The notes below the pieces were generated by a model that was not told the origin of the DNA, did no database searches, and saw only the letters and a list, made by a program, of their open reading frames with translations. Both the position numbers and the translations under genes were made by a program. A DNA stretch of 64,000 nt from Corynebacterium uberis (GTDB lineage Bacteria > Actinomycetota > Actinomycetes > Mycobacteriales > Mycobacteriaceae): contig NZ_CP085051.1 in the NCBI RefSeq assembly GCF_020616335.1, positions 2,170,001-2,234,000 of the forward strand. The letters run 5' to 3'. Of this stretch, positions 238 to 60,645 are shown piece after piece (within the stretch, counting starts at the first letter, position 1; each line of letters starts with the position of its first letter).

Positions 238-857
238 CCGCTTATCGACGCCCCCTTTCCCCCACCCCAGCACGGGGTACGGGAGGGGGGGGGACCAAGG
301 TGGATCAGCAGCACTCTTAGAACTCTGCCGACTGGTGCGGCCAGTCAACCTGGAATCACACCTCGCGTGCCACTTCTTCTCAACGTGCGCCCTACTCCTG
401 TTAACAAGTCTCACCTGCACACATCTGATGCTCTCCGCTCGCTGTGCCGCCTAGACAGCCTCAATGAACTGTAGAAGAGACAGAACCTATGCGCGCAGAA
501 TATATTCCCCCTGATAGTCCAATCTCCGGGACTAGAACACCTTGCACTGGAGCCTGCTAATATCGCGAGCCTGGCCTCCAAGAGAAGATCTCAATGGAGG
601 ATTAATATCCGCGAGAGACTAGCGCCCTTACTCAGCTCACCTCACAAATCCATTGTCCGGCACCCGGCCTACCATTCCAGAGAAGTTGGTTTCCTGGGGC
701 AACGCCAGACAAGGTGCGACACACTCGTAGATAATCCGTCCCGATTTAAACAATAAAAATAAGTAGCGGGACCATTCTCTAATTTCTCAATAGCACAGAC
801 TCCCCGCGTTCTGCTGCTCTTCGCCAAAGCGCTCCCTGCACACAATGAGATTCCGTC
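238..857. other. Gene-poor stretch, 620 bases
   Basis: No convincing reading frame is present. It opens, right after the lipase stop, with one copy of the dispersed motif CGCTTATCGACGC (239-251) and a C-run/G-run stretch (249-294) that could fold as a hairpin but lacks a T tract. From about 400 onward base composition is clearly less GC-rich than the neighbouring genes and stop codons are frequent in all frames, which suggests decayed or foreign DNA. Confidence 0.5.
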
Positions 858-1049
858 TCATCGCTTTGGATAAATGATCCACTGTATGAGATATACGACG
901 ACCATCGGAACGCCAAACAAGGCCGCCATTACATAGATCACTCTTACAGTATTCGCAGTCAGCCCGCAGGTCTCAGCTACGCCTGCGCATATTCCAGCAA
1001 TACGTTTTCCATCGTCGGTACGATGCCATTTATCTTCCGCAAAACTCAT
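858..1049 (-). CDS. PspC domain small membrane protein
   Basis: This 63-residue protein is essentially one PspC domain. A basic, polar start with KRIAGICAGVAE (residues 15-26) is followed by one hydrophobic segment (about 37-58) and a short basic end. PspC domains sit in the inner membrane and in other bacteria take part in envelope-stress signalling; stand-alone short copies are common in actinobacteria and their role is unclear. The start is supported by AAAGGAC about 9 bases upstream on the minus strand. No partner gene (pspA, toastrack) is adjacent. Confidence 0.8.
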   Translation of the reverse strand: MSFAEDKWHRTDDGKRIAGICAGVAETCGLTANTVRVIYVMAALFGVPMVVVYLIQWIIYPKR

Positions 1050-1561
1050 GAGTATGTTTGTCCTTTTATCGCTCCAACAACATCACACGAGCTTAAGTGA
1101 GAGCGCAAGCTTGAAATTTGCAGCGCTTCTACCGTCTATTCAAGATTTCTACACTCTAGCAGCAAGATAGGCGACTGCCCTTGGCATGACTCGTTCTTAC
1201 TACTAACCGGCTCGGGTGGGAAAGCGTTCATGGGACTAACGCATACGCCGACGGCGAACGAGTTCGGGAGCCCTAGGGTTCGGTTTCAACGTCGACCCTT
1301 CGCAGACCTGGATGGCTCCAGCGCGGATCTAACAAGCTTACATTCCCCCTCCAGGTACCAAGAGCCATCACCACAGGGTTTGAACTGTCGCGAATACCAT
1401 CTCCTTGTGAGCTCCAAGCCCCTCCTTGCCGCTGTCACCCCCCTATGGCCTAGCCACGTACCAGCAGGCCTCACAGCTGGCATCAAGCCACCAGTTGCCA
1501 CGATCGCATCATTGCGAATTGCAGTTGTACGACCATGGCAACTCGGCTCTGTGTATCCTGA
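1050..1561. other. Intergenic region upstream of the pspC-like gene and downstream of clpC
   Basis: I see no gene I can support. Short overlapping frames exist on both strands but lack ribosome binding sites and look like low-complexity translations. A 7-base inverted repeat, GTTGCCA (1494-1500) and TGGCAAC (1536-1542), lies just past the clpC stop and might help end clpC transcription, though it has a 35-base loop and no T tract. Confidence 0.4.
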
Positions 1562-4246
<2,685 letters not shown>

Positions 4247-4275
4247 GTCTTAAATAACCCCTATGCGGATAAGTG

Positions 4276-4281
4276 ATATTA
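4276..4281 (-). promoter_or_regulatory. Likely -10 box of the clpC promoter
   Basis: On the minus strand the sequence reads TAATAT, close to the consensus, about 30 bases before the clpC start codon. An AGGGG ribosome binding site lies between. The -35 element is weak. Confidence 0.45.
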
Positions 4282-4457: not shown

Positions 4458-4471
4458 CTTGTCAAAGAAAT

Positions 4472-12004: not shown

Positions 12005-13252
12005 ATGTCCCACACTCCCATCGGTGCCTGGTCCGAGGTTGGCAAGCTGCGTCAGGTCATGGTCTGCTCCCCCGGCCGCGCCCACGAACGCCTCACCCCC
12101 CGCAACTGCCAAGAGCTGCTTTTCGACGACGTCCTCTGGGTCGACCAAGCACGCCGCGACCACGCCGACTTCGTGGAAAAGATGAGAGGCCACGGCGTCG
12201 AGGTACTAGAAATGTCCCAGCTGCTCGCCGAAACGCTCGAAGACACCACCGCGCGCGCCTGGGTGCTGGACAACAAGCTCGCCCCCAAGAACGTCGGCCA
12301 CGGCATCTCCCAAGAACTGCGCGGATGGCTTAACGACGTCCCCGCCGCCGAACTGTCCGAACTCCTCATCGGAGGCGTGGCCTACGCCGACCTGCCCAAG
12401 GACCTGCGCGGCCCCGTCTCGTCTGCACTCGCCGGCGTCCACGAGCCCACCGAATTCGTCCTGCCCCCGCTGCCCAACACGCAGTTCACCCGCGACACCA
12501 CCGCCTGGATCTTCGGCGGCGTCTCGCTGAACCCCATGCACTGGCCCACCCGCCGCCAGGAAACCCTGCTGACCACCAGCATCTACAAGTTCCACCCGAC
12601 CTTCGCCGACCAAGACTTCAAGATCTGGTACGGAGACCCCAACGAGGACCAAGGCCTGTCCTCCCTGGAAGGCGGCGACATCATGCCCGTGGGCAACGGC
12701 GTGGTGCTCATCGGCATGGGCGAGCGCTCCTCCTGGCAGGCCATCTCCCAGCTGGCCCGCAACCTGTTCGCCGAAGGCGCCGCCGAAAAGGTCGTCGTGG
12801 CCGCCATGGCCCCCGACCGCGCCTCCATGCACCTGGACACCGTCTTCTCCTTCTGCGACCGCGACCTGGTCACCTGCTACGAGCCGGTCACCGACACCAT
12901 CGCCTCGCTCATCCTGCGCCCCGAAGACAACGCCGCCGGCATGTCCGTCGAGCGCGACGACCGCAAGTTCGTCGACGTGGTTGCCGATGTCCTGGGCCTC
13001 AAGGAACTGCGCGTCGTATCTACCGGAGGCGACGCCTTCGCCGCCGAGCGCGAGCAGTGGGACGACGGCAACAACGTTGTCGCCCTGGAGCCCGGCGTGG
13101 TCGTGGGCTACGACCGCAACACCTACACCAACGCCAAGCTTCGCGACGCCGGCATCGAGGTCGTCGAGGTCAGCTCCGCCGAACTCGGCCGCGGCCGCGG
13201 CGGCGGACACTGCATGACCTGCCCGATCACCCGCGAGGCCGTTGACTACTAA
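12005..13252 (+). CDS. arcA: Arginine deiminase
   Basis: ArcA hydrolyses arginine to citrulline and ammonia. The 415-residue protein has the catalytic C-terminal motif GHCMTCP, with nucleophile Cys at about residue 403, FTRDT around residue 160, and the HLDT motif at about 279. I chose ATG 12005 because GAAAGGA lies 11-17 bases upstream; an in-frame TTG at 11996 would place the ribosome binding site too close. It is the second gene of arcDA and is closed by a strong terminator, which separates it from arcB and arcC. Confidence 0.97.
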
Positions 13253-13383: not shown

Positions 13384-14249
13384 ATGCACCGTGTGACTGG
13401 TGGGGTTAACAAAGTGCGCAAATCACCCCCGAAACGCCGGTTTTTCACCCCCGAAAACGCATCGTGTAAACCTCACCAGTCACACGGTGCATTTTGGGGG
13501 CCTACCCGAAAGGGCAAGACCCCCGGAGACGCGAACAGACCCCGGGCCCGAGCAGAACGCGAACGCACGAGAAGGCCCCGGGGGCGTCGATAAGCGTCTG
13601 CCTTGCGGACCTTGTAGACTCTCGGCCTCGGTACGCGCCCCCCTCCTGCACCGTGTGACTGGTGGGATTAATACAGTGCACAAATCACCCCCGAAACGCC
13701 GGCTTTTCACCCCCGAAAACGCACCACGTAAACCTCACCAGTCACACGGTGCATTTTGGGGGCACGGAGAGTGCGAGGCCCGCGCCCGGGGGACGCGAAC
13801 AGACCCCGGGCCCGAGCAGAACGCGAACGCACGGGAAGGCCCCGGAGGCGTCGATAAGCGTCTGCCTTGCCGCCCTGCGCCGCGCCCCCGTTCTCTGCAC
13901 CGTGTGACTGGTGGGATTAACAGAGTGCGCAAATCACCCCCGAAACGCCGGCTTTTCACCCCCGATAACGCATCGTGTAAACCTCACCAGTCACACGGTG
14001 CATTTTGAGGGCCTACCCGAAATGGCAAGACCCCGGATACGCGGACAAGCCCCGGGCCCGAGCAGAACGCGACCGCACGGGAAGGCCCCGGGGGCGTCGA
14101 TAAGCGTCTGCTTTGCGGCCCTGCGCCGCGCCCCCGTGCCATGCACCGTGTGACTGGTGGGATTAACAGAGTGCACAAAACACCCCCGAAACGCCGGCTT
14201 TTTACCCCCGAAAACGCACCGTGTCAACCTCACCAGTCACACGGTGCAT
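13384..14249. repeat. Array of four hairpin-bounded repeats between arcA and arcB
   Basis: Four elements of 107-109 bases lie at 13384-13492, 13647-13753, 13896-14002 and 14141-14249. Each is bounded by perfect inverted repeats, TGCACCGTGTGACTGGTG and its exact complement, 18-19 bases long. Each contains two copies of TCACCCCCGAAA. The spacers (154, 142 and 138 bases) are also alike, and the three of them each carry GCGTCGATAAGCG. The unit is therefore a tandem duplication of about 245-263 bases. The perfectly kept arms with changes elsewhere suggest selection for the hairpin or an element with terminal repeats. No transposase is present. Confidence 0.85.
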
Positions 14250-16005: not shown

Positions 16006-16947
16006 ATGACTGACTCCAAGAGAATCGTCGTTGCCCTCGGCGGCAACGCTTTGGGCAAGACTCCCGCCGAACAACTCGAGCTGATCAAGCACACTGCCAC
16101 ATCGCTGGTGGAGATGATTGCGGCTGGCCATGAGGTGCTTATCTCTCATGGCAATGGCCCGCAGGTGGGCATGATCAAGGTGGCTACTGATGAGTCCGCG
16201 CGCACGGGCTCCACGCCGGAGATTCCGTTCGCCGAGTGCGGCGCAATGTCGCAGGGCTACATCGGCTATCACCTGGTTCAGGCGTTGCGCAATGAGATGG
16301 CTGCGCGTCAGCTGAATCGTGCGACCACCGCGATTGTCACGCAGACGGTGGTGGACGCGGATGATCCTGCGTTCCAGAAGCCGACCAAGCCGGTGGGCGC
16401 GATGTTGTCTAAGGAGGAGGCGGAGTCTCTGGCCGCCGCGACGGGCAACACCTATGTTGAGGATGCTGGGCGCGGCTGGCGTTGGGCGGTTGCGTCCCCG
16501 CAGCCGGTGCGCGTGGTTGAGGCTGATGTGATTCGTTCGCTTCTCGACGCCGGCGTGGTCACCGTCGCCGCCGGCGGCGGCGGCATCCCCGTCACCGATT
16601 CCGGTTCTGAGCTGCGCGGGGTGCCGGCGGTGATTGATAAGGACCGCACCGCGGCGCTGCTGGCCCGCGACGCGGATGCTGATGAGCTGGTGATTCTGAC
16701 CGCGGTGGACAACGTCTACCTGGATTACAACCAGCCCACGCAGCGTAAACTGGAGACCGTCACGGCGTCGGAGGCGCGTAAGTACGCCCAGCAGGGCTAC
16801 TTCGCGGAGGGGTCGATGCTGCCGAAGATTGAGGCCTGTTTGGACTTTGTGGAGTCCGGCCCCGGACGCAGCGCGCTGATCACGTCTTTGGAAAAAGCCA
16901 GCCAGGGCCTCGAGGGGACCTGCGGCACTCATATCGTCGCCGATTAA
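16006..16947 (+). CDS. arcC: Carbamate kinase
   Basis: ArcC transfers phosphate from carbamoyl phosphate to ADP, giving the ATP gained from arginine. The 313-residue protein has the amino acid kinase fold with ALGGNALGK (about 10-18), SHGNGPQVG (about 47-55), the PTKPVG carbamate kinase signature and DKDRTAALLA. I chose ATG 16006, which gives the family-typical start and has GGAGG 13 bases upstream, over an in-frame upstream codon. A run of more GC-poor codons distinguishes it from arcA. Confidence 0.95.
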   Translation: MTDSKRIVVALGGNALGKTPAEQLELIKHTATSLVEMIAAGHEVLISHGNGPQVGMIKVATDESARTGSTPEIPFAECGAMSQGYIGYHLVQALRNEMAARQLNRATTAIVTQTVVDADDPAFQKPTKPVGAMLSKEEAESLAAATGNTYVEDAGRGWRWAVASPQPVRVVEADVIRSLLDAGVVTVAAGGGGIPVTDSGSELRGVPAVIDKDRTAALLARDADADELVILTAVDNVYLDYNQPTQRKLETVTASEARKYAQQGYFAEGSMLPKIEACLDFVESGPGRSALITSLEKASQGLEGTCGTHIVAD

Positions 16948-17062: not shown

Positions 17063-18706
17063 ATGACTGCGTCTCAGCCAGATTCGCTTGACGCCCACGC
17101 CCAGGACAACACCCTTATCGATGCCCCGCCGGGAGGCGAGCTACCGGGGTCAGCCACGGATGAGGCACAGAAGAAGCCCAAGAAGAGAAAGTTCAGTTTC
17201 CCTTCCGCGTTTACTATCCTTTTTGCTCTTACCATTGTTGCCGTCGCGGCCACGTGGTTTGTTCCCGCCGGGTCCTATTCCAAGCTGCATTTTGATGACA
17301 GCTCCTCCCAGCTGGTGGTCACCGCCCCGGATGGCAGTACGGAGAATCTTCCTGCTGAGCAGTCCAGCCTGGACAAGCTCAACATGGACATCGGCATTGA
17401 TAAGTTCACGTCGGGGGCCATTAAGAACGAGATCTCTGTTCCGGGCACCTATGAGCGCGTGGAGCAGGTGCGTGCCGGGGCGTGGGATATCCCGACCTCC
17501 ATGGTGGAGGGCACCATTGAGGCGGTGGACATCATCGTGTTCATCCTGGTGCTGGGCGGTTTGATCGGGGTGGTCCGCGCGACGGGGGCCTTTGAGTCGG
17601 GGCTGATGGCCCTGACTAAGAAGACTAAGGGCCGCGAGTTCATGCTCGTTGCGGTGGTCTCTGTGCTCATGGTGCTGGGTGGTACGGCCTGCGGCATGGA
17701 GGAGGAGGCGGTGGCCTTCTACCCCATCCTGGCGCCGATCTTTATCTCTTTGGGTTATGACTCGATAGTCACGGTGGGTGCCATCTTCCTTGCCGGATCG
17801 GTGGGGTCCGCGTTCTCCACCATTAACCCATTTTCTGTGGTCATTGCGTCGAATGCGGCGGGCGTGCAATTCACGGAGGGCATCACGTGGCGTATTGCGG
17901 GCTGCGCGGTGGGCGCGGTGGCCATCATCGCTTACCTGGCCTGGTATTGCCGGCGCATTAAGAAGGACCCCAGCGCATCCATTTCTTATGAGGACCGGGA
18001 CAAGTTTAAAAAGCACTGGGGTATGAGCGAGGACGCCGCCGCTATTGGGGCGTTCACGGTGGAAAAGAAGATCATTCTTACCCTGTTTGCCATCGCTTTC
18101 CCGCTGATGGTGTGGGGTGTGATGAGTCAGGGCTGGTGGTTCCCCACGATGGCGGCCTCGTTCCTGACGATCACCCTGATCATCATGTTCATCGCCCACT
18201 ATGGGGGCAGTAAGCTCAGCGAGTCGCAGGTGGTGGATGCGTTTTCGGAGGGGGCGTCATCGCTCGTGGCGGTCTCGCTGATCATCGGCCTGGCCCGCGG
18301 CATCAACATCGTGCTCAACGAGGGCAAGATCTCCGACACGATGCTGGATTCGGCCTCCCACATGGTCACCGGCATGCACGGCCCGGTGTTCATCCTCATG
18401 CTCATGGTGGTGTTCTTCTTCCTGGGCTTTGTGGTGCCGTCCTCCTCCGGCTTAGCGGTGTTGTCCATGCCGATCATGGCTCCGCTTGCCGACGCCGTGG
18501 GCATCGAGCGGTTCATCGTCGTTTCGGCTTATCAGTGGGGCCAGTATGCGATGCTGTTCATCGCCCCCACCGGCCTGATCATGGCGACCTTGCAGATGCT
18601 GGACATGAAGTTCTCCCACTGGCTGAAGTTCGTCTGGCCGATGGTGGCGTTCATGTTCGTCTTCGGCGGCGGCATGCTCGTCGCCCAGGTGCTGGTGTAT
18701 AGCTAG
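17063..18706 (+). CDS. YfcC/ArcD2-type basic amino acid carrier
   Basis: The 547-residue protein has a charged N-terminal tail of about 45 residues and then about 12 membrane segments. Motifs of the YfcC / C4-dicarboxylate anaerobic carrier family include GGTACGMEEEAVAFYP and FVVPSSSGLAVLSMPIMAPL. Members beside arginine deiminase genes act as arginine/ornithine exchangers, so this may be a second exchanger alongside arcD, unrelated in sequence. ATG 17063 is preferred over an upstream TTG because GAAAGG lies 11-17 bases before it. It ends the arcBC group and is followed by a clear terminator. Confidence 0.88.
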   Translation: MTASQPDSLDAHAQDNTLIDAPPGGELPGSATDEAQKKPKKRKFSFPSAFTILFALTIVAVAATWFVPAGSYSKLHFDDSSSQLVVTAPDGSTENLPAEQSSLDKLNMDIGIDKFTSGAIKNEISVPGTYERVEQVRAGAWDIPTSMVEGTIEAVDIIVFILVLGGLIGVVRATGAFESGLMALTKKTKGREFMLVAVVSVLMVLGGTACGMEEEAVAFYPILAPIFISLGYDSIVTVGAIFLAGSVGSAFSTINPFSVVIASNAAGVQFTEGITWRIAGCAVGAVAIIAYLAWYCRRIKKDPSASISYEDRDKFKKHWGMSEDAAAIGAFTVEKKIILTLFAIAFPLMVWGVMSQGWWFPTMAASFLTITLIIMFIAHYGGSKLSESQVVDAFSEGASSLVAVSLIIGLARGINIVLNEGKISDTMLDSASHMVTGMHGPVFILMLMVVFFFLGFVVPSSSGLAVLSMPIMAPLADAVGIERFIVVSAYQWGQYAMLFIAPTGLIMATLQMLDMKFSHWLKFVWPMVAFMFVFGGGMLVAQVLVYS

Positions 18707-21211: not shown

Positions 21212-22795
21212 CTAAGCCTCCGGCTTGACCATCGGGAAGAGCACGGTCTCCCGAATGCCCAGGCCAGTCAGTGCCATGAGCAGGCGATCAATGCCCATTC
21301 CGTTGCCGGAGGTCGGGGGCATGCCCTGTTCCATGGCGCGCAGGAAGTCCTCGTCTAGGACCATGGCTTCCTCGTCGCCGCCGGCGGCCAGGCGGGCCTG
21401 GTCCTCAAAGCGTTCGCGCTGGATGACGGGGTCCACCAGTTCGGAGTAGCCGGTGGCCAGCTCGAAGCCGCGGACGTAGAGGTCCCACTTTTCGGTGACG
21501 CCGGGCTTGCTGCGGTGCTGGCGGGTCAGCGGGGAGGTCTCCACGGGGAAGTTCTTGACAAAGACCGGCCCGTAGAGCTGATCGGAGCACAGGTGCTCCC
21601 AGATCTCTTCGACGAACTTACCGTGACCCCACCCGCCTGCCTTGGGCCAGTCGAGCCCGATGGCGTCGGCAAGCGAACGCAACTCATCGACGGTGCTGTC
21701 GATGGTCACCTCGGGTTGGCCGGGGTGCTTGGCGGCGAGCGCCTCGTTGAGGGAGGGATACATTTCCATCTCGCGCCACTGCCCGCCGAAGTCATATTCG
21801 GTGCCGTCCGCCAGGGTGACGGTGGTGGAGCCGAAGACCTCCACGGCGACGGATTGGATCAGCCCCTTGATCAGCGCGGCGCCGTCCTCATAGGTGCCAA
21901 AGGCCTGGTAGGTCTCCAGCATGGCAAATTCGGGGCTGTGGGAGGAGTCCACGCCCTCGTTGCGGAAGTTGCGGTTGACCTCAAAGACGCGCTCCAGCCC
22001 GCCGACGACGCAGCGCTTGAGAAACAGCTCCGGGGCGATGCGCAGATACAGGTCAATGTCGAGCGCGTTGGAGTGGGTGACAAACGGGCGCGCGGCCGCC
22101 CCGCCATGCAGGGTTTGCAGCATGGGGGTTTCTACCTCCAGGAAGCCCTGGTCTTCCAGGTAGTGGCGCACGGCGCGCAGCACCTTAATCCGGGTCAGCG
22201 CGTTGTCGCGGGCCTGGGAGCGCATGATCAGGTCCGTGTAGCGCTGGCGCACGCGGGTGTCCTCATTCATCTGCGCGAAGGCCACGGGCAGCGGGCGCAG
22301 GGCCTTGGCGGCCATGGACCAGCGAGTGGCCATGATGGACAGCTCGCCGCGGCGGGAGGCGGCCACGATGCCGCGAACGGAAATAAAGTCGCCCAGGTCA
22401 ACGTCGGCCTTCCAGGCGTCGAGGGCGTCCTTGCCCACCTTGGCCAGGGAGAGCATGGCTTGGATCTGGGTGCCGTCGCCGGCCTGGAGGGTGGCAAAGC
22501 ACAGCTTGCCGGTGTTGCGCATAAACATCAGGCGGCCGACCACGGCGACTTCGTCGTCGGTCTCCTGACCCGGCTCGAGGACGGTCACGCCGGCGTCAGG
22601 ATCAGCCGGCGAATCAGCAGCGCCGTCCTGCGCGACGGTGTAGCGGGCGCGGATATCGGCGATGTCTGCGGTGCGGTCGACGGTGACGGGGTAGGCCTCA
22701 ATTCCGGCGTCGAGTAGTCGGGCGCGCTTCTCGCGGCGGATGCGCAGCTGTTCGGGCAGGTCGGCGGCGTGCTGGGGGTTTTGGGGGTTGTTCAC
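21212..22795 (-). CDS. lysS: Lysyl-tRNA synthetase, class II
   Basis: LysS charges tRNA-Lys. The 527-residue protein has an N-terminal OB fold and a class II core with motif 2 ([18 protein letters not shown]) and motif 3 ([15 protein letters not shown]) near the C terminus. An insertion with [13 protein letters not shown] (about 60-75) sits before the OB fold. In Mycobacterium tuberculosis lysS lies between coaX and lsr2-clpC1. Here panD, coaX and lsr2 are not beside it. Confidence 0.96.
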
Positions 22796-22996
22796 AGCAT
22801 CCCAGCGTATCGCATGGGTTGGCGGTTCCAGCCACCGGCAGATTAATGTGATATCGCTTTTTCGCCGTGTGCGCGCTAAACTGATATCAGATTATCGCTT
22901 CTCGACGCCCCGCGTGCCCCACCCGCCGCGCCGCGCCAGCGATGGTCCCCCACTTATTCCCGCTCCCCCACCCGCACCATCAAGAAGGAGAAACCC
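22796..22996. promoter_or_regulatory. Divergent control region of lysS and the SPFH gene
   Basis: It contains the perfect palindrome CTGATATCAG (22881-22890), immediately followed by a copy of the dispersed motif CGCTTCTCGACGC (22896-22908) extended with CCC. AT-rich patches around 22850-22895 could hold promoters for both genes. Confidence 0.4.
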
Positions 22997-23938: not shown

Positions 23939-24166
23939 ATGGCCCGCAAAAACGTCCCGCTGCGCATCGACCCGGGGGTCTATGACGCCATCGCCCGCTG
24001 GGCGGCCGACGAGGCGCGCAGCGTCAACGCCCAGATGGAAGTGATGCTTCGCGACGCCCTCCGCCGCGCCGGTCGGCTGCCCCGCAACGTCGGCGACCTG
24101 CCGCGCCGCGGCCGGCCCAAGGGCACCAGCTCTGCTGCCCCCACCTCTCCCGAGGACGCCAGCTAG
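23939..24166 (+). CDS. Ribbon-helix-helix (Arc type) small protein
   Basis: The 75-residue protein begins with [20 protein letters not shown] and has [15 protein letters not shown] about residues 27-41, the beta strand plus two helices of an Arc/MetJ DNA-binding dimer. The tail is basic and Ser/Pro-rich. Its ATG touches the stop of the SPFH gene, so the two are translationally coupled. Similar proteins act as antitoxins, but no toxin is next to it; the downstream gene is convergent. An autoregulator of the SPFH pair is a reasonable guess. Confidence 0.75.
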
Positions 24167-24972
24167 CTGGCGTCGCCCAGGTTTTTAAAGCCCACCCCCA
24201 GCGGCACGCCCACGTTATCTACCAGGCGCACCGGCCCGAACGTGGCGGCCACCAGCAGGCGAGCGTCCGCCTGCTGGCACTGCGGGTCAAGCCGGCGCAG
24301 GCTGCGGTCCCGCAGCTCAAGGTAGTCCGGGGCCACCCCCGCCGCGGCGAGCACCCCGGCCGCCGTGTCCAGCACCGCCTGATAGCCGCGCTCGGCCACA
24401 TGCGCGCCGGCTGTCAGCGCCGCCGACAGTGCCACCGCCGCCTCCCGCTGGTTCTTAGGCACGGCCACGTTGCGGTGGGAGACCGCCAGCCCACCAGGCA
24501 TGCGCACCGTGGGCACCGAGCGCACCGTGACATTCTGGTGCAGGTCCGTCATGGCCTGCTGGGCGGCCAGCGCGAACTCATAGTCCTTTTCGCCGACCAC
24601 CACGTCGCTGGCGCGCACCGCCGCGGCCAGCGCCACCAGCTGGGTCAGCGCCTCGCCCAGCTGCGCGGGGTCTTCCAGGCCGTGGTCGGCGGGCACCAGG
24701 CGGGTGCGCGGCCCGGCCGGATACAAGTCCCGCGGATCCACCCGGACCACCGCGTCAACCTGCGGGAGGGGCCCATCCTGGGTGCCGGTCAGCGCCAGGA
24801 TGGTGATGCCGCGGGGCAGGCGGGCGGCGGCGTCGATAAGCGCGAGGTGACCGGCGTGGATGGAATCCGCGCACACCAGCGCCACCGGGCGGCCCTGGGA
24901 GCGCAGCGCATGGCCCAGGCGTCCGGCCTGCTCCAGGGTCAGTTCGCGGGCCTGGCCGAAAGCAAAGCTCAT
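24163..24972 (-). CDS. PanC-like protein, divergent pantoate-beta-alanine ligase
   Basis: PanC joins pantoate and beta-alanine using ATP. This 269-residue protein keeps the nucleotidyltransferase HAGH motif (about residues 39-42) and VVGEKDYE (about 138-145). The usual PTMGALHEGH reads [12 protein letters not shown], and SSRNxYL reads SHRNVAV. Both are active-site regions, so activity may be lost or altered. ATG 24972 is chosen because it forms an ATGA overlap with the upstream stop and has AGGAG before it. Gene order DUF2520-panC matches mycobacteria, but panD does not follow. Confidence 0.75.
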
Positions 24973-34465: not shown

Positions 34466-34586
34466 GTGAGGGGGCTAACTGGGGTCCACAACTGGCTGAG
34501 TTCCACGTAGTGGAGTGAGCGCAGGGGTGACCACCAAAGTGCGGGTACGCCCAAAGACAGCCGACTTTACGCTTATCGACGCCCCA

Positions 34587-39517: not shown

Positions 39518-40444
39518 TCACTGCTCCGTACTCGCCCTTTCCACCACCAACCCCCCATCCCTGCGCACGCGCACGCCACCGCTCACGTCCACCGGGCCTT
39601 GCCCATGCCAGGTCATCACCAGGGCGTCGACGGCAGCCACATGATTCTGGGTCACCCGCCCCCCGGCGTCGCGGATCAGGCGTGCTAGTGCCCGGGAGCG
39701 CACCGCCGGGGGCAGCGCGGCCAGCGCCGCAACGTCAGTGGGGTCCACGCTCGCGGCCCACTGTTCTACTGCGGCGGCGTCGGCGGCGGCGCGGGTGGCA
39801 GCACCGGCGAGTGGAGGTGCGGGGTCGGCGTGCAGGGCGTCGGCAAGCGTGGGCAGTAGGTGGCGCACGGCGACGCGCCGGTAGGCAACATCACAGTTTT
39901 GCGGGTCGTGCCAGGGCTGTATTCCCAGCTCGGCGCATGCCCCGTGGGTGTCGGCGCGGCGCACGGCCAGCAGAGGGCGGTGGAAGCAGTCGCGCACGGG
40001 GAGCATGCCGCCGGGGGTGGCGCGCAGGGCGGCAAGCAGGAAGGTTTCGGCTTGGTCGTCTAGCGTGTGGCCCAGCAGTACCGGCGCACCGCAGGCCGCG
40101 GCCTGCAACGCCTCCAGGCGTGCCCGGCGCGCAGCCGCCTCCATCCCGCCTTCCCCAGCGACGGTCACGGGCAGCACCCGGGTGTTAGCTCCCCACGCCC
40201 GCGCCTGCTCGGCGGCACGCGCCGCCACCGCACCAGAGCCCTCCTGAAGTTGGTGGTCGACGATCAGCGCCGTGGCGGCCAGGCCTTCGGCAAGCACCCC
40301 GGCGAGCAGCGCCAGCGAGTCCGGACCGCCAGAAAGCCCCACGCACACCTCGGCGACCCCGGCCAAGTGCGCGCGGACGTGGCGGCGCACCCCCAGGCGG
40401 ACCTGGAGGAAATGCGGCGGATCGTGGGGCAGGTTAAGCATCAT
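39518..40444 (-). CDS. tilS: tRNA(Ile)-lysidine synthase
   Basis: TilS adds lysine to C34 of tRNA-Ile(CAU) so that it reads AUA. The 308-residue protein has the N-type ATP pyrophosphatase loop SGGPDS (about 37-42), LGHTLDDQAETFL and RPLL. Its start overlaps the dacB stop by 11 bases. The protein is short, as in actinobacteria, lacking the C-terminal domains of E. coli TilS. In relatives hpt follows directly; here the accessory segment does. Confidence 0.95.
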   Translation of the reverse strand: MMLNLPHDPPHFLQVRLGVRRHVRAHLAGVAEVCVGLSGGPDSLALLAGVLAEGLAATALIVDHQLQEGSGAVAARAAEQARAWGANTRVLPVTVAGEGGMEAAARRARLEALQAAACGAPVLLGHTLDDQAETFLLAALRATPGGMLPVRDCFHRPLLAVRRADTHGACAELGIQPWHDPQNCDVAYRRVAVRHLLPTLADALHADPAPPLAGAATRAAADAAAVEQWAASVDPTDVAALAALPPAVRSRALARLIRDAGGRVTQNHVAAVDALVMTWHGQGPVDVSGGVRVRRDGGLVVERASTEQ

Positions 40445-41723
40445 GCAGCGCGGAGGCCAGGGCGTCGAGCGCCCCGCGGGCGGCGGTGATCTGCGAGCCG
40501 TTAGAGATCATGCCAAAGCTATACAGCCGCCCAGAGCGGCTGACCACCGTGCCAGCCAGCGCAGACGTGTTGTCCAGCGTGCCCGTCTTGGCACGCACCC
40601 ACCCGCGCCCATCCAGCTGCCCGTAGCGCTGCTCCAGCGTCCCGGAACCGCCCGCCACCGGCAGGGTGGGCAGCAGGGCGCGCAGCTGCGTATCCGTCGC
40701 CGCGGAGCGCACCAGCGCCTCCAGCAGCGCCGGCGGGATCCGGTTATCCACCGACAGCCCCGAATTGTCCTGGAGGGTCACGCCTTCAAGGTCAAAGCCC
40801 GCCTGCGCCAGCACCTCCAGCGTGGACTGCGTGGCCCCAGCAGCGTCCGCGGTCACGCCCCGGTGCACCGCCACCTCCCGCCCAATGGCCTCCGCCATGA
40901 CGTTATCCGAATGCACCATCATCGCCGCGATGCGCTCACTCAAGCTTGGCGACGCCACCTTGGCCACCACCGCAGCCCCCTGCGGCGCAGTCGCCTGCCC
41001 CACCGTGGTCACCCCCAGCTGCTCCGCCAGCGCCGCCGCCACATCGTGGGCGGGAGTATGCGAGCGCGGCACGTCACCGTCTACCTCCCCGCCCAGGCGC
41101 GCGCCGTTAATCATCGCCGGCTCCAGCGGGGCCACAAACCCGGCATCCACATCCGCCGGATTCCAGCCCTGCAAAATCGTCTCCCCCGACCACACTGACG
41201 TATCAATGAACACGCCCGTGACCTCCGGGTGAGCGGACTTGATCTGCTCGGCCAGCTCCCCGATGGCCTCCTTGGTCATCCACACATCGCCCGCGGCCTT
41301 AATCACCACCGTGCCCGGCAGCTCTCCCTCCACCACCTGGGTGACAATGCGATCTTGGGCGCCCAACTCCACCAGCGCCGCAGAAGCGGTGAGCACCTTG
41401 GTGGAGGAGGCGGGGCGCAACGGGGTGGTGGAGGCGGCGTCGAGAAGCACCTGCCCAGAACCCACCTCCGTGACCTTCGCCCCAAACGTGGCCAACGCAG
41501 GATCCGCGGCCAACTGCTCCAGGCGCGCACGCAACGCCGCCACATCCACCTCACCGGTCGGCTGCGCCGGCTCCAACAACGGCTGCGGAGCCACCACCTG
41601 CACCGCCGGGCCGTGCTCCAACGCGGCATAACGCTGCTGACACGCCACACCCACGCCTGCCACACCGGCAACCACCACCGCGGTCGCACTCGCCGCCGCT
41701 ATCCACCACGCCTTCTTAGTCAT
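40434..41723 (-). CDS. dacB: D-alanyl-D-alanine carboxypeptidase/endopeptidase (PBP4 type)
   Basis: DacB trims peptidoglycan peptides outside the membrane. The 429-residue protein has a signal anchor (about 5-28) and the penicillin-binding triad SSTK (in PASSTKVLTA, near residue 108), SDN (HSDNVMAEAIG) and KTG (RAKTGTLDNTS). It belongs to peptidase family S13. I chose ATG 41723, giving MTKKAWW followed by the hydrophobic core. It overlaps tilS, an order conserved in actinobacteria. Confidence 0.93.
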   Translation of the reverse strand: MTKKAWWIAAASATAVVVAGVAGVGVACQQRYAALEHGPAVQVVAPQPLLEPAQPTGEVDVAALRARLEQLAADPALATFGAKVTEVGSGQVLLDAASTTPLRPASSTKVLTASAALVELGAQDRIVTQVVEGELPGTVVIKAAGDVWMTKEAIGELAEQIKSAHPEVTGVFIDTSVWSGETILQGWNPADVDAGFVAPLEPAMINGARLGGEVDGDVPRSHTPAHDVAAALAEQLGVTTVGQATAPQGAAVVAKVASPSLSERIAAMMVHSDNVMAEAIGREVAVHRGVTADAAGATQSTLEVLAQAGFDLEGVTLQDNSGLSVDNRIPPALLEALVRSAATDTQLRALLPTLPVAGGSGTLEQRYGQLDGRGWVRAKTGTLDNTSALAGTVVSRSGRLYSFGMISNGSQITAARGALDALASALHDA

Positions 41724-44838: not shown

Positions 44839-45362
44839 AGTGACACCTTGCTTTCCGTGCGCACGATGGTGGCCTCCCCCGGGTAGAGGTGCACGCTGCG
44901 CCAACTCCAACCATCCGCAGTCGCCGCCCCGCACAGCGCGGTCAGGTGAAACGGGCCCGCCCCAGGGAAGCGGCCAACCAGCCAGCCGCCGCGCTCGAGG
45001 TCTGCCACCAGCGCGCCGGCCTGGGCCACAAAATCACCGGCCACGTCCACGCGGCTGCGCAAGCAGTAGCCCGCGCACTCGTAGCGGGGCGGCAGGGCAA
45101 CGTCGCAGGTGGGCGCGGGGGTGGGGACGGGGGCGTCGCTAAGCGAGCGGCACGAGATCTCCTCCCGCCACACCAACTTATGCGCACCGTCGCGCACCGA
45201 AACCACATGGGACGCGCCAATGATCCCCAACTCCAGTGACCCGGCACCCGCGCGCACCACATCGCGCGCCAACAGCGGCGCCTCCGGGCCATTGAGCCGC
45301 AGCAACAAATCCCCGGCGCGCGTGTCCGCGGGTGCCACGGACAACTCCAGCACCCGGCTCAC
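44835..45362 (-). CDS. DUF2617 protein
   Basis: The 175-residue protein is cytoplasmic by composition and matches DUF2617. It has SRVLELSVAPADTRAGDLLL at the start and GWSWRSVHLYPGEATIVRT at the end. The start is a GTG overlapping the DUF4178 stop as GTGA; a longer upstream frame is only a shadow. Its function is unknown, but the gene stays with DUF4178/DUF4247/DUF350 in actinobacteria. Confidence 0.82.
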   Translation of the reverse strand: MSRVLELSVAPADTRAGDLLLRLNGPEAPLLARDVVRAGAGSLELGIIGASHVVSVRDGAHKLVWREEISCRSLSDAPVPTPAPTCDVALPPRYECAGYCLRSRVDVAGDFVAQAGALVADLERGGWLVGRFPGAGPFHLTALCGAATADGWSWRSVHLYPGEATIVRTESKVSL

Positions 45363-50774: not shown

Positions 50775-52118
50775 ATGTGCGGCGTGCTAGCCCCACGCCT
50801 GAAGTCTTCCGCCGTGCGCGCGCGCCTACCTTTTCCAGAGTCTTGCGCCCTGGCGTGGGTAGCCACCCGCGTCCTCATCGCGTTGTTTGCCGCGCGCATC
50901 GGTCCTGGTGATATCCCCTATTACTTCCGCTCGGTGCACTCCCCCGATCCGGGCCGCGTGCCCCTGGAGGAGTACCCGTACCTTTTGGCCGCCCCACTGG
51001 GTGTGCTGGAGCATCTTGTCGGCGGGGATCAGACGCGCTTCATCGTCGCGTTCGGGCTGCTGCTGTTGTCGTGCGATGCCGCGCTGACCTGGTACCTGGT
51101 GCGCGCCCGCGCGCGCTGGGCGCTGGCCTTTTGGCTGGCGTGCGGGGTGGTGCTTTCCCCCATCGTGCTCACCCGGCTGGACCTGGTGCCGGGCATGATG
51201 GTGGCCGCCGCTGCGGCGGCATTGGGAACCTCGGACCGCGTGGCCGGGGCGCTGACTGGCCTGGCCACCGCCATCAAGCTGGGCCCGGTGGTGCTGGTTG
51301 CAGGGCTGGTGGGCCACTGGCGTGATGCGCGCACGTGGGTGCGCGTGGGCTGGGCTGCAGGCACCATGGCGCTAGCCGGGCTGCTCACCCTGGTGGCCGC
51401 GGGCCCGACGCGCCTGCTCTCACCTGTGGGCTATCAGTTCCACCGCGGCCTCGAGGTAGAAGCACTGGCTGCGATCCCGTTGTATTGGCTGCGCTTGGGT
51501 GACCCGCAGCGCTGGCCGGTGCGCTTCGCGGCGTCGAAAAGCTATGAGATCTTCGGTCCTGGGGTGGCGGGCCTGCTCACGGTGACCACGGTGGCTATCG
51601 CGTGCGCGGGCATAGCGATCCTGGGCTTGGTGGCTTGGCGGGCGCTGGATCACCGCGCGCCGACGAGCCCGCCCGCCTCGCGTGCGGCGTGGCTGACCAT
51701 GCTCATCGCAGTGCTGGTGACGTCCAAGGTGCTCTCCCCGCAGTATCTGCTGTGGGTCTGCCCGCTGGTGGCGGTCATGCTCGCGCTGGATGTGCGCCCG
51801 GTGGGCACGCCGCGGCGGTGGGTACTGCCCGCCATCGGGGTGGGGCTGCTCATCGCGGCCGCGGCGACCACCGTGGTCTACCCTGTGCGCATCTCCGGGT
51901 TTGTCTCCAACACCGCGCCGGACGCGCTGGCCTACCTGTGCGCCACCGTCCGCGGCGTGGTGCTGCTGGGCATCGGCGTGCTCGCGGCGGTGGAGATGTG
52001 CACCCCGCGCCCGGTGCCTCACAATGAGCCCAAGCCCAAGCCCGAGCCCAAGCCCGAGCCGATTTTCCCCGTCTACCGGGAGGTGAGCTATGTCCCAGTT
52101 GCGTCGCGGACTCGATAG
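50775..52118 (+). CDS. GT87-like membrane glycosyltransferase, paralogue 2
   Basis: The 447-residue protein shares blocks with its neighbours: EEYPYLLAAPLGVLEHL, AIKLGPVVLVAGLVGHWR, SKSYEIFGPG and KVLSPQYLLWVCPLVA. It ends in a repeated KPKPEPKPEP tail before IFPVYREVSY, absent from the other two. The gene starts 18 bases after marR and overlaps the third paralogue by 29 bases. Confidence 0.8.
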   Translation: MCGVLAPRLKSSAVRARLPFPESCALAWVATRVLIALFAARIGPGDIPYYFRSVHSPDPGRVPLEEYPYLLAAPLGVLEHLVGGDQTRFIVAFGLLLLSCDAALTWYLVRARARWALAFWLACGVVLSPIVLTRLDLVPGMMVAAAAAALGTSDRVAGALTGLATAIKLGPVVLVAGLVGHWRDARTWVRVGWAAGTMALAGLLTLVAAGPTRLLSPVGYQFHRGLEVEALAAIPLYWLRLGDPQRWPVRFAASKSYEIFGPGVAGLLTVTTVAIACAGIAILGLVAWRALDHRAPTSPPASRAAWLTMLIAVLVTSKVLSPQYLLWVCPLVAVMLALDVRPVGTPRRWVLPAIGVGLLIAAAATTVVYPVRISGFVSNTAPDALAYLCATVRGVVLLGIGVLAAVEMCTPRPVPHNEPKPKPEPKPEPIFPVYREVSYVPVASRTR

Positions 52119-53304
52119 CCCGCTGGGCAGCGCCGTCGGCTGGTGGGTCACGCGCATGGCCCTGCTGCTCTTCGCCGCCCACCAGCGCGGCCCCGCCCCA
52201 GAGGTGAAGTACTACTACAAGGGCGTCACCGGGCAGGGCTCCGCGCTGCGCGAATACCCCGACCTTGGGGTGGTGCCGCTGCGGGTACTCCACCTGCTCA
52301 CCGGCGACGATCGCGTCCACTTCACCGTCGCCTTCGCCGCACTGATTCTGCTTTGCGACGCCGCTCTCACCTGGTACCTCGCCCGCCGCCACGCATGGTG
52401 GGCAGTATGGTTCTGGCTGCTGTCCGGCCTGGCACTCGCGCCCATCTATACCCGCCGCCTCGACCTCATGGCAGGCCTGCTGGTGGCGTGGGCCGCCGCA
52501 CTGCTGTCCCGCCGCGGCCCCGCCAGCGCAATCCTGACCGCGTGCGCCACCGCCGTGAAACTCTGGCCCGCCGCCCTGCTCGCCGGCCTGGTAGGCCACT
52601 GGCGCGCCAGCGGCACATGGATGCGCCTAGGCTGGGCGGGACTGACCCTGGTGGCCACCGTTGCGCTGACCACGGTGACCCAGGGGTGGGACCGGGTGAC
52701 CTCACCCCTGGACTACCAGGTGGACCGCGGCCTCCAAACGGAATCGGTGGCGGCCACGCCGTTCTTGTGGGCGCACTGGGCGGCGCCGCAGCGCTGGAAG
52801 ATTGATTACGCGGCGTCGAAAAGCTTTGAAGTCTTCGGCCCGCATGTCTCCGTCGGGCTGGCAGCCACCACGGTGCTCAGCATTGCCGTGGCCGCGGTGA
52901 TTCTGGGAGTGGCGCTGCGCGCCTTCCTGCGCACCGGGGCGCTGACCCCCACCGCCACCCGCGCCCTGTGGCTGGTCTCCATCGCCGGGATCCTGGTCTC
53001 CTCCAAAGTGTTTTCCCCCCAATACCTCATGTGGGTCACCCCGCTGCTGGCGGTAATGCTGGCTCTCGACGGCCGGCCACGCAGCCTCATCGGCGGCGCC
53101 TGCGCAGTGACGCTGGCCGCCTGCGTGCTCACCACCGCCGTCTACCCGCTGACGTTTAACGGGTTTATCTCCTCGACCAACCCGTCCGCTGTGTCCTACC
53201 TGTATGCCACGGGCCGCAACCTGCTCATCGTGGCGCTGCTGGTCATCGCCGGGATGTGGCTGTGGCGCACGCTGCGCCGCCCGCAGGACGCCGCGGAAAG
53301 CTAG
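52090..53304 (+). CDS. GT87-like membrane glycosyltransferase, paralogue 3
   Basis: The 404-residue protein has about 10 membrane segments, the acidic loop YYYKGVTGQGSALREYPDLG and blocks AVKLWPAALLAGLVGHWR and KVFSPQYLMWVTPLLA. Closest in layout to paralogues 1 and 2, it lacks the KPEP tail. It overlaps the preceding gene, so translation is coupled. Substrate unknown; a mannosyl or arabinosyl transfer to cell envelope glycolipids is the family expectation. Confidence 0.8.
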   Translation: MSQLRRGLDSPLGSAVGWWVTRMALLLFAAHQRGPAPEVKYYYKGVTGQGSALREYPDLGVVPLRVLHLLTGDDRVHFTVAFAALILLCDAALTWYLARRHAWWAVWFWLLSGLALAPIYTRRLDLMAGLLVAWAAALLSRRGPASAILTACATAVKLWPAALLAGLVGHWRASGTWMRLGWAGLTLVATVALTTVTQGWDRVTSPLDYQVDRGLQTESVAATPFLWAHWAAPQRWKIDYAASKSFEVFGPHVSVGLAATTVLSIAVAAVILGVALRAFLRTGALTPTATRALWLVSIAGILVSSKVFSPQYLMWVTPLLAVMLALDGRPRSLIGGACAVTLAACVLTTAVYPLTFNGFISSTNPSAVSYLYATGRNLLIVALLVIAGMWLWRTLRRPQDAAES

Positions 53305-54440: not shown

Positions 54441-56105
<1,665 letters not shown>

Positions 56106-57701: not shown

Positions 57702-57738
57702 CGTGTCACCCCACACACGCATTGGGTACTTTTGGCCA

Positions 57739-57768: not shown

Positions 57769-57847
57769 CGGGTGGACACTACAACGTCTCCTGTACACCA
57801 ATAGCTGTGCAGCACCGGCGCCTCCGGCTCACAGAAAGGACGCGACC

Positions 57848-58537
57848 ATGAGCCCCACGCCCGTGAAGTCGGCGATACACGCACACAACCTCGCCGTCCG
57901 GCTGAGCACCAACACCGCGCCGCTCTTTTCCGACCTCACCCTCGACGTCGCCGCAGGCGAAAGCATATCCATCGTTGGCACCAGTGGAGAGGGGAAAACC
58001 ACCCTCCTCCACACCCTTGCCGGGCTCATCCGCCCAGAAAGCGGCTCCGTACACATCACCGGGCGCGATATATACGCCCTGAGCCCCAAAGAACAAAGCC
58101 TTTTCCGGCTGACCTCCGTTGGTTACGTATTCCAGTTTGCCGAACTCATCCCCGAATTGACATTGCTGGAAAACGTCATGGTGCCCAATTACCTCGCTGG
58201 GGCCACGCGCCGGGACGCCAAAGCCGCTGCGCTAAAACACCTAGCGGCCGTAGGCATTGACGCCGAAACAGCATCGCGCACACCCGACCACGTCTCTGGC
58301 GGACAAGCACAACGCGCTGGCATCGCGCGGGCACTAATTAACCAGCCGCCCGTAGTTCTCGCCGACGAACCAACCGGGTCCCTTGATGCCGCAACATCGC
58401 AGGACGTCCTGGCTGTTCTATTGAAGGCCGTAGCAGACACGCAGGCCACCTTGGTGCTCGTCACTCACGACGCCGCGGTCGCCCACGCAACGGATCGCAG
58501 TGTTCGCCTAGAGGGAGGGCGGCTCCACGAATGCTAA
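57848..58537 (+). CDS. ABC transporter ATP-binding protein (LolD/MacB type)
   Basis: The 229-residue ATPase has Walker A GTSGEGKT (about 45-52; Ser-Gly-Glu variant), the signature SGGQAQR near residue 149, Walker [10 protein letters not shown] and the H-loop THDAA. It belongs to the LolD/FtsE-like group working with FtsX-type permeases. GAAAGGA precedes ATG 57848. It overlaps the permease start by 7 bases. Confidence 0.92.
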
Positions 58538-60645
58538 AGTCACCGCACACCCGGGCGCTCGGACTCGGCGCCCTCATCAGCTTCCGGTCCCACTCGCTCC
58601 CCCGCCTCGGAGCAATTGTTGCCACCGCGATAGCGGTTATGTTTCTTGCCTTTGCGTGCGTGTTACCCCAGGCCATCACGCAGCGTACCGATCACGCCAA
58701 TGCCCGCATTCCCCATCAACAGTACGTCAATGACATGCTCCAGGAACCGTGGATCTTGTCCACAATGGACCTCAAACTCATTGGCGACAAAAAACTCACA
58801 GTCTTTTACACTGCGGACGGGCAAATTTCCACCGAGGACGTAGCGCCTCCCCCTGGAATCCCGAGCTTGCCGCCAAATAATAGCTACTACGCCTCACCCA
58901 AGCTCCAAGCATTAATTGATGCCGGATCGGTGACCATTCCTGGAAGCAGCTTGGGGACGATTCACGATAGCGGGCTGCAATACCCCGATGAGCTAGTTGC
59001 CTGGGTGGGGTCCACGCGCGAGGCGCTGGAACGTGAAAATATCGCCTACTCTGGGTCTTTCGGAGGGCCCTTGCGGAAGGTTCAGAGTTTTGGCGTGCCG
59101 GACGCGGAGAAGCATGAGTCCATTGGGATGAATAGCTTTGCACTATCCCCACCAGTTCAGATACTCCTCTTTGTGTGTGCCATTGTATCTGCAATACCCT
59201 GCATTCTCGCCGCTCAAACCGCGTGCACATTGATTGCCCGCCAGCGCGTAGAAATGCTGAGCAAGTTCACGCTCATCGGACTTTCCCAAAAAACCATCAG
59301 ACTGCTCTCCACTGGGGAAACGCTCTACATCCAGGTGCTCGGCTGGGTCCTGGGGCTCACCGCAGCTTGGGGCCTTGAACCGCTCGCCCGGACACTCACT
59401 CCCAGCGAGGCACAGTGGTTTACAAGCGAGACGCACATTCTCAATCCGCTCATTATGGTTTGTGCGTTAGTTATCATTTCCGCCGGCTGCCTGGCAGCAC
59501 TGAAACCGCCGCGTAAGGCTCGACGCCGCGGCCGCTTCTTGCCAGTCCTGTGCTTTGCCACGGGCATTGTCACCATGCTGCTGTGCGTCCACTTCAAAGT
59601 GGAGATGATTAATGCTGTTGAGGGAAGCCTGTTGTTCATCGGACTAGCAGGGTTGACACTCGTTGCATTGAGCCTTCGCGGCTGCATTATGTGGGTCACC
59701 GGGGCAGTCGCCTCAGCGATAAAGTCTTTTAGCCCTTCGATCCTTTTGGGAACAGCGCGCCTGCGCAAAGAACCAACAGCGGCGTCCCGCGGCCCCGCTG
59801 CAATTGGCCTTGCGGTTCTCGCGGTCAGTTTGAGCACCATGATTACCGGGCAGCTATTTTCCTATATCATCGCCCCAGTAAACCAAGCAGATAATGATCT
59901 GACAGTCGTCGAATCCACTCATGCAGAAGACGTCGCACGGAATGTTCCTGGAGGAGTGCTGGTTTCCCACAGGGAAGATGGCATCCAAATTAATTGTGAG
60001 CAAGTACGATCGCTCCTCCACAGGGATTGCGCCAACGGGGCCCGGGGAATATCCCGACACATCGCGTACAACAACGCGGGTCATCCGCTCAACTTGGCCG
60101 ATACTCCTGAACCCATCCAACATCCCAACGTCGTTGCCTACCGCAACACCGACCTTGCCTCCCTCGACCCGATTTATCGCGCAGACCCCTTCGCCGTAGT
60201 GACCAACCGCGATGTCTCCATCGCCGCCTACCTCTACGCCAAGGGCTCCATCTTCACCCTCTACCGCACCGCCGGGTGGTGGACCGTGGCCACCTGTACA
60301 TTGTTTGCCATCGTGGCGGCGGGGGCGTCGGCAAGCGGGCGCAAGCGCCTAACCGCGGCCCTGGGAGTAGTTGGGGTCAACGCACGCACTCAGCGCCTGG
60401 CGTGGCTGATCTATGCCGCAGTGCCATTGCTCGTTGCCGTGGCGCTGGGCGCAGGGACGGCCTTCATCGCGGACTGGTGCTTTGTCACCCTGGTGGAAAT
60501 CCCCGGCGCGCTGGGATGGGCGAGCGTGATAGAGCCCTTGATTGTCGGCGCCATCGTGGCGCTCGTGGCCGGAGGTGCCTATGCGGCGATCTCTATGACG
60601 GCCGCGCGGGAGAAGGTCACCGTGTCAGACCTGCGGCGGGTGTGA
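58531..60645 (+). CDS. FtsX-like ABC permease
   Basis: The 704-residue protein has an N-terminal membrane segment (about 27-47), a long extracytoplasmic domain (about 50-210), several membrane segments in the middle, a second extracytoplasmic region (about 450-570) and three final membrane segments, the doubled FtsX layout. Such MacB-like mechanotransmission systems export or sense peptides or lipids. The gene is less GC-rich than its neighbours, which hints at transfer. No substrate gene is adjacent. Confidence 0.85.
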   Translation: MLKSPHTRALGLGALISFRSHSLPRLGAIVATAIAVMFLAFACVLPQAITQRTDHANARIPHQQYVNDMLQEPWILSTMDLKLIGDKKLTVFYTADGQISTEDVAPPPGIPSLPPNNSYYASPKLQALIDAGSVTIPGSSLGTIHDSGLQYPDELVAWVGSTREALERENIAYSGSFGGPLRKVQSFGVPDAEKHESIGMNSFALSPPVQILLFVCAIVSAIPCILAAQTACTLIARQRVEMLSKFTLIGLSQKTIRLLSTGETLYIQVLGWVLGLTAAWGLEPLARTLTPSEAQWFTSETHILNPLIMVCALVIISAGCLAALKPPRKARRRGRFLPVLCFATGIVTMLLCVHFKVEMINAVEGSLLFIGLAGLTLVALSLRGCIMWVTGAVASAIKSFSPSILLGTARLRKEPTAASRGPAAIGLAVLAVSLSTMITGQLFSYIIAPVNQADNDLTVVESTHAEDVARNVPGGVLVSHREDGIQINCEQVRSLLHRDCANGARGISRHIAYNNAGHPLNLADTPEPIQHPNVVAYRNTDLASLDPIYRADPFAVVTNRDVSIAAYLYAKGSIFTLYRTAGWWTVATCTLFAIVAAGASASGRKRLTAALGVVGVNARTQRLAWLIYAAVPLLVAVALGAGTAFIADWCFVTLVEIPGALGWASVIEPLIVGAIVALVAGGAYAAISMTAAREKVTVSDLRRV

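Follow-up and report, generated by a model that had tools for sequence, protein, structure and literature searches.

The window analyzed here is a 64,000-nucleotide stretch of Corynebacterium uberis DNA, positions 2170001–2234000 of the single contig of this genome (2,533,318 bases; G000 below, other G numbers denoting sampled relatives' genomes). It carries a dispersed 13-base motif that we interpret as a putative DNA uptake sequence. A first-pass annotation had placed 18 copies here, nine on each strand, and all 18 positions were correct. On the forward strand, exact matching and the gene map placed the copy CGCTTATCGACGC (239..251) in intergenic DNA, where the gene map also located the copies at 22896..22908, 33285..33297 and 34570..34582. 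Three further forward copies lie in genes read in the same direction, namely an amino-acid-kinase-family gene (16006–16947; copy at 16538..16550), a DcuC-like carrier gene (17063–18706; 18483..18495) and an MmeI-like restriction-modification gene (35164–37968; 36578..36590), and two are antisense within the reverse-strand DUF6779 gene (25709–26815; 25952..25964) and a called reverse-strand gene (28005–28394; 28259..28271). On the reverse strand, an exact match falls in a ClpC-like gene identified by Pfam (1562–4246; 1692..1704), and other copies fall in a class II tRNA synthetase gene (21212–22795; 21663..21675), a pantoate-beta-alanine ligase gene (24163–24972; 24830..24842) and two called genes (39518–40444; 39837..39849, and 44835–45353; 45133..45145), all on that strand. 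One reverse copy is antisense within a called forward-strand gene (60094–60645; 60325..60337). The remaining three (13584..13596, 13848..13860 and 14094..14106, all exact matches) are intergenic members of one tandem array with a period of ~250 bases, so that the window holds ~16 independent copies. The array itself (13385–14248) consists of four 107-base elements with the inverted repeat TGCACCGTGTGACTGGTG / CACCAGTCACACGGTGCA at their ends, and the motif copies sit in the linkers.

Relaxing the first base increased the count further. There are 27 window copies of the 12-mer GCTTNNCGACGC; those without the leading C occupy 84..95, 13138..13149, 24046..24057, 40944..40955, 52350..52361 and 63897..63908 on the forward strand and 41437..41448, 51531..51542 and 52813..52824 on the reverse strand. 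The annotation's estimate of about 0.1 copies of the 13-mer in 64 kb agreed with our 0.12 (100 dinucleotide-preserving shuffles, the largest yielding 2). With one mismatch allowed, the window contains 33 copies against 3.19 expected. The two variable bases were said to favor AT or GC, and this is seen in 13 of the 18 copies. A search of the window against Rfam at gathering scores was negative. Over the whole genome, the 13-mer was found 195 times on the forward and 190 times on the reverse strand (385 in all), far above the 4 + 2 = 6 copies of a reversed-pattern control.

The 13-mer as first stated is a trimmed form of a longer motif. We aligned 68 copies from 464 kb of the genome (the window and 20 spread stretches). 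The first base of the 13-mer is only a preference, for C or T (C 68, T 49, A 21, G 13 in the same 464 kb), and the base just past it (position 13, counting from 0) is C in all 68 copies, followed by C at position 15 in 59 and at position 22 in 57. Intergenic copies, which are free of codon constraint, gave the consensus YGCTTATCGACGCCSC (48 copies), with A in 30 and T in 43 of them at the free bases. Variants at inner positions 1, 2, 7, 8, 10 and 11 occur in 0 or 1 copy each. Among the inner positions, the first T of GCTT is the least constrained, GCGT..CGACGC having 37 copies to the 12-mer's 160, and at the last C there is again no more than a preference, with 29 T, 14 A and 11 G as alternatives. 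We write the core as GCTTnYCGAYGCC, with two wobble bases inside it. Cytosines at each third base 3' of in-frame copies reflect codon periodicity, and intergenic copies keep a weak C-rich tail; past ~16 bases, there is no longer conserved unit or flank beyond this tail and periodicity. A mobile-element or repetitive extragenic palindrome (REP) trace, the former being among the options of the annotation, was rejected as unsupported on this ground.

Next, we considered the orientation and placement of the copies. Over 201 genomes of the genus, 11883 copies are on the forward and 11885 on the reverse strand, and strand z-scores have a standard deviation of 1.02 across the 129 genomes with at least 50 copies; such equal totals indicate that the motif is not polar. 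Among 160 sampled copies of the C. uberis genome, 73 are leading and 87 lagging, with GC skew used to place the origin close to the start of the contig and the contig split into halves. Together, these results bore out the earlier remark that the motif is unlike a strand-biased FtsK guide, and a polar guide resembling FtsK-orienting polar sequences (KOPS) or architecture-imparting sequences (AIMS) was ruled out. Density was 1.5–4.5 copies per 10 kb in all 22 sampled stretches of this genome, and we saw no origin or terminus enrichment, clear replichore bias or clustering in them. Spacing is slightly even if anything, with a mean of 8.4 copies and a variance of 5.0 over 21 stretches of 20 kb each.

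We then asked how the copies relate to coding sequence. Genes were called with a home-made caller, by which 83% of G000 DNA is coding and some window open reading frames (e.g. 58531–60645) are only partly called, so the genic and intergenic numbers are approximate. In 484 kb of G000, the 160 copies of the 12-mer divide into 117 genic, 42 intergenic and one at an edge, intergenic copies thus being the denser (17% of the DNA holds 42 of the 160). Most genic copies, 74 of 117, are read in the frame G|CTT|NNC|GAC|GC as Leu-X-Asp-Ala. Codon bias had been offered as part of their cause, and the frame agrees with that; nevertheless, synonymous-codon shuffling of the same genes yielded a mean of 4.28 copies (maximum 10 in 100 runs), so that codon usage alone was ruled out and accounts for just 4.3 of the 117. 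The motif therefore stands far above a codon-aware expectation as well as above the reversed control. CTT makes up 7.0% of all Leu codons in G000 yet 47% (83 of 175) of those within Leu-X-Asp-Ala. Relatives enriched in the same form of the motif (G096, G192, G029 and G099, the 11-mer being used for G099) contained 14–49 genic copies against 0.6–3.7 after shuffling, and two genomes with a second form described below gave 22 against 1.7 (G006) and 18 against 0.9 (G111), whereas motif-free G010, G014, G066, G147 and G163 had 0 or 1 genic copy each. The peptide Leu-X-Asp-Ala occurs 0.45–0.92 times per 1000 codons in five motif-free genomes compared with 1.07–1.55 in enriched ones. Genic copies are retained at the DNA level, independent of codon choice.

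To follow the motif across the genus, we called a genome enriched at 30 or more copies of the 13-mer, twice the largest control count (15), and set the threshold at 70 for a second form. The form ending in CGACGC (the AC dialect) is enriched in 134 of the 201 genomes, so the motif extends well beyond the window and beyond this genome. A sister form, GCTTNNCGATGC, ends in CGATGC (the AT dialect) and reaches 73–646 copies in 14 genomes, which hold just 1–24 copies of the AC form; conversely, 13 of the 134 AC-enriched genomes carry 40–72 copies of the AT form as a minor spelling. The two spellings are mutually exclusive across the genus, most sampled species carrying hundreds of copies around the chromosome; 148 of the 201 genomes are enriched in either, and 53 fall below both thresholds. 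The second form came to light in an unbiased gapped-word search of genomes with little of the first, which yielded GCTTGNCGATG in G006 (29 copies per 100 kb) and G111 (20 per 100 kb), with less than one expected. The search for a third dialect covered 80–100 kb from each of 12 genomes with few copies of the first form (G152 after masking of an array resembling clustered regularly interspaced short palindromic repeats, CRISPR). Two gave the second dialect, and nothing convincing emerged from the other ten, all from among the 53, although G062 was swamped by an unmasked CRISPR-like array. This search returned the words CCGACGCCGA in G066 and CTCGACGCC in G132. Some genomes contained other repeated words. 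Motif-free G010 (L071–L075, 100 kb) has 10 copies of AATTTNGCCAC against 0.16 expected and 16 of CGACGCCACC against about 1, possibly another element or dialect. Motif-poor G133 (L181–L185) has a dispersed repeat rich in CTAAGNGGTGC and CCCAANNNTGCAC at 12–16 copies per 100 kb, and G066 (L076–L080) has the palindrome TAGACN6GTCTA, with 8 matches over both strands (~4 places) against 0.02 expected, perhaps a regulator site.

Midpoint-rooted trees were made from TadA of 21 genomes and from HolA of 20; some of their branches are poorly supported, and between them they included ten different AT-dialect genomes. Eight form one group in the TadA tree (support 86/85), and eight form one group in the HolA tree with motif-free G014 inside it. 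A motif-free group stands apart in each (G010, G066 and G147 for TadA; G010, G147 and G128 for HolA), that of HolA also taking in the long-branched AC-dialect G099. Motif-free G152 and G163 are placed among AC genomes. As far as these two protein trees resolve it, dialect follows phylogeny. Outside the genus, we drew 201 genomes of the family from 31 genera. In the 185 genomes of the 30 other genera, GCTTNNCGAYGC stays near the reversed-pattern control, with a few up to 3.7-fold above it; the largest excess is in G297 (171 against 46), and five genus-g23 genomes have 134–156 against 71–94. The C. uberis genome has 796 against 24. A scan of the GTDB collection (84,980 species) with a 17-base form hit at least 120 stretches, and 74 of the 80 matches listed are named Corynebacterium. 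The motif is nearly confined to one genus.

Conservation at orthologous sites, another check proposed earlier, was assessed at the copy starting at 36578. Pfam identifies the surrounding gene as MmeI-like, with all five MmeI domains of this type IIL family including the target recognition domain, and the site therefore lies in a restriction-modification gene. A DNA search, which is not a protein census, found matches of at least 900 bases in 15 of the 201 genomes, C. uberis included; the gene has a patchy distribution in the genus and may itself move between species. We aligned 14 genomes, eight of the AC dialect and six others. GCTTnnCGACGC is present in five of the eight (C. uberis, G056, G037, G184 and G045, with middle bases CG, CA, AA, GT and CA, respectively), that is, in four of the seven aligned same-dialect relatives, and in none of the six others (motif-poor G014, G147, G030, G163 and G195; AT-dialect G138). 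In the alignments of the Tad, ComEC and MmeI loci, with ordered pairs counted, the motif was kept in 22 of 48 AC-to-AC comparisons against 6.3% of control windows, and in 38 of 96 AT-to-AT comparisons against 14.1% (G006 and G105 are near-identical). By contrast, it was never kept from AC to motif-free (0 of 33), AT to motif-free (0 of 14), AC to AT (0 of 16) or AT to AC genomes (0 of 39), and in 2 of the 16 AC-to-AT comparisons the sole difference was the dialect base.

The C. uberis genome encodes genes of a transformation type. At 219.5 kb lies a Tad locus, its genes named by homology (an Ssd-like protein, TadA with PF00437, T2SSF, a DUF4244 pilin and TadE/TadG-like proteins), and comEA-comEC-holA and dprA are present as genes, with open comEA-comEC and dprA frames. 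In Micrococcus luteus, tadA1, tadA2 and comEA are listed as competence-related genes (PMC6667448). T2SSE scores across the genomes look bimodal. By similarity, we detected no TadE in motif-free G010, G066 and G147. In motif-poor G195, the ComEC match at C1:543012–543797 contains one in-frame TGA.

Collectively, our results suggest that the motif is a DNA uptake sequence (DUS) with dialects, a self-DNA tag of Corynebacterium in natural transformation, a reading to which we assign a probability of about 0.6. A DNA-uptake-like tag was one of four options in the first-pass annotation, and it is the one best supported by the dialects, strand symmetry, codon independence, near-confinement to the genus and transformation-type genes, from which we infer the function. 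Symmetry fits a tag that works in either orientation, and kin-DNA uptake followed by recombination would account for the high copy number, the indifference to orientation, the tolerance of synonymous and intergenic places, the dialects and the losses. In the mechanism that we propose, double-stranded DNA carrying the motif in either orientation would be recognized at the cell surface by a DNA-binding protein of the Tad (Flp) pilus, for which a minor pseudopilin (TadE/TadG-like) or the pilin is the likeliest candidate, or else by ComEA. The pilus would draw the DNA in, ComEA and ComEC would pass one strand, and DprA and RecA would recombine it. Uptake biased in this way could spread and maintain copies wherever they are tolerated, above all in the Leu-X-Asp-Ala frame within genes and, in some species, in intergenic DNA. 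A shift in what the receptor recognizes from C to T at core position 10, a single base that is third in an Asp codon of the commonest frame, may have given rise to the second dialect in one clade, and specificity may have been lost in the motif-free species. It is slightly better than an even bet, in our judgment, that most Corynebacterium species use a third, independently evolved uptake-sequence system, the first in Gram-positive bacteria and the first coupled to a Tad pilus, whose dialects divide gene exchange between clades and have reshaped the proteome through additional Leu-X-Asp-Ala peptides and the rare Leu codon CTT.

Several observations weigh against an uptake sequence. No close neighbors (within 40 bases) occur among 214 G000 copies, where 3.8 were expected, and six other genomes have two, one of them inverted; the inverted-pair terminators frequent in Neisseria are lacking here. 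Such pairs are characteristic of uptake sequences but do not define them. The C. uberis genome holds ~785 12-mers (796 less 11), compared with ~1900 in Neisseria. Among viral contigs, the motif was found in at least 120 stretches and the reversed control in 112 (80 matches listed per scan, one per stretch); these matches look like background, and we conclude nothing further from them. At 36578, the motif is absent from three of the eight AC-dialect genomes (G176, G157 and G106), and 20 of the 22 kept AC-to-AC comparisons come from this MmeI site alone, which makes pairwise site conservation weak by itself. The intergenic share is uneven, with 42 of 160 copies in G000 against 20 of 142 in six other enriched genomes (0/22, 3/21, 4/35, 12/28, 0/24 and 1/12), so the genomes do not uniformly favor intergenic DNA. 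ComEC was found in 200 of the 201 genus genomes, T2SSE in 198 and the Tad pilin in 198; being nearly universal, none of them predicts the motif, and we ruled out their presence as a predictor. Open comEA/comEC frames are likewise kept in all six motif-free genomes examined. In our view, apparatus genes that separate enriched from motif-free genomes are no strict requirement of the uptake-sequence family. Alignments of TadE, TadG and the pilin showed no clean dialect marker or dialect-specific receptor residue, and we found no competence experiment in Corynebacterium in the literature searched.

The main named rival is a novel Chi-like hotspot, in which an AdnAB-like break-processing enzyme would read the motif and protect DNA or direct recombination. 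The motif is genome-wide, dispersed and species-variable, species-specific Chi variants exist, and two adjoining open frames of 1081 and 1171 amino acids with PDDEXK_1 (G000 C1:634026–638034) are, by inference, AdnAB-like; it is the existence of these frames that makes this the leading competitor. However, the known Chi sites have fewer bases and are polar; this one would be unusually long and, given the even strand totals over the genus and the leading/lagging split, unpolar. No Chi is known to be read by AdnAB. RecC was not found in the C. uberis genome, and RecBCD-Chi was rejected for want of it. Overall, we regard a Chi-like role as unlikely. A site for a nucleoid or chromosome-organizing protein, whose specificity shifted in one clade, appears similarly unlikely. 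The slightly even spacing and the spread of copies over both strands and over genic as well as intergenic DNA speak for this explanation, also among the earlier options, but sites of nucleoid organizers are usually few and regional, and we found neither origin or terminus enrichment nor clustering nor a clear replichore bias in the sampled stretches. Full turnover in a subclade together with scattered losses would also be surprising for an essential organizer.

The presence of an MmeI-like enzyme with a target recognition domain in the window, and the asymmetry of the motif, could mean that the motif is what a DNA methyltransferase or a restriction system recognizes, such as the enzyme encoded at 35164–37968. 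This option of the annotation leaves the enrichment unexplained: restriction sites are usually avoided or neutral, here enrichment is about 60-fold, and the gene is matched in 15 of 201 genomes compared with 134 enriched in the motif, some of the 15 being motif-free (G014, G147, G030 and G163). We consider it very improbable. Another genome-wide function, comparable to that of highly iterated palindrome 1 (HIP1) of cyanobacteria, the role of which is unsettled, is a small but real prospect, since a function is not proved by enrichment and restriction to a lineage on their own; HIP1 is palindromic, though, whereas the Corynebacterium motif is asymmetric and has a dialect inside one genus. A mere by-product of codon or amino-acid usage has next to no chance of being correct, despite the many copies in the Leu-X-Asp-Ala frame, because shuffling predicts so few of the genic copies, because own-genome intergenic copies are denser than genic ones and because, at 36578, the middle codon varies while its flanks stay.

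If the uptake-sequence reading is true, the motif would represent the first such system outside the Neisseriaceae and Pasteurellaceae and the independent evolution of the same device in a distant phylum. To our knowledge, self-DNA uptake tags have so far been reported only from these two families, both Gram-negative. Many corynebacteria would then be predicted to be naturally transformable, and the dialects would provide a map of DNA exchange partners that can be read from sequence. A one-base dialect change within one genus amounts to a natural specificity experiment, which makes the receptor question testable. Even with another function, a ~16-base motif maintained in 148 of 201 genomes would be worth explaining. 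We found no description of it in the literature searched (mostly open-access, bioRxiv preprints excluded), where text matches to CTTATCGACGC were unrelated by title. In the available portions, a study of spaced motifs in prokaryotic genomes mentions Corynebacterium for CRISPR-derived pairs only (PMC5217627), and another used DUS distributions to find mobile elements (PMC7371117).

How does the motif compare with known systems? The DUS of the Neisseriaceae, for which the receptor is ComP, differs from it in belonging to another phylum and a type IVa rather than a Tad pilus, Corynebacterium being actinobacterial; the Corynebacterium motif has two wobble bases in its core and no inverted-pair terminators, and its role in uptake is putative. 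The accessible text of PMC3630211 nonetheless describes a similar element, a short asymmetric motif present in very many copies (943–5918 10-mers in the genomes quoted, against ~785 12-mers in C. uberis), both genic and intergenic, with dialects one or few bases apart that follow phylogeny and with some motif-free relatives. The uptake signal sequence (USS) of the Pasteurellaceae likewise combines a core with an extended flank, comes in two dialect types and has a pilin-like protein, ComN/PpdA, as its predicted receptor, according to the part of PMC12616744 available; its sequence is unrelated, its flank is AT-rich where that of Corynebacterium is C-rich, and its phylum and pilus are different. 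Transformation in M. luteus shares the actinobacterial machinery, Tad ATPases and ComEA, although the M. luteus paper nowhere uses the term 'uptake sequence' (PMC6667448). Chi, KOPS and HIP1 resemble the motif as dispersed, over-represented sequences. Chi and KOPS are polar, however, and HIP1 of cyanobacteria is a palindrome, whereas the Corynebacterium motif is neither.

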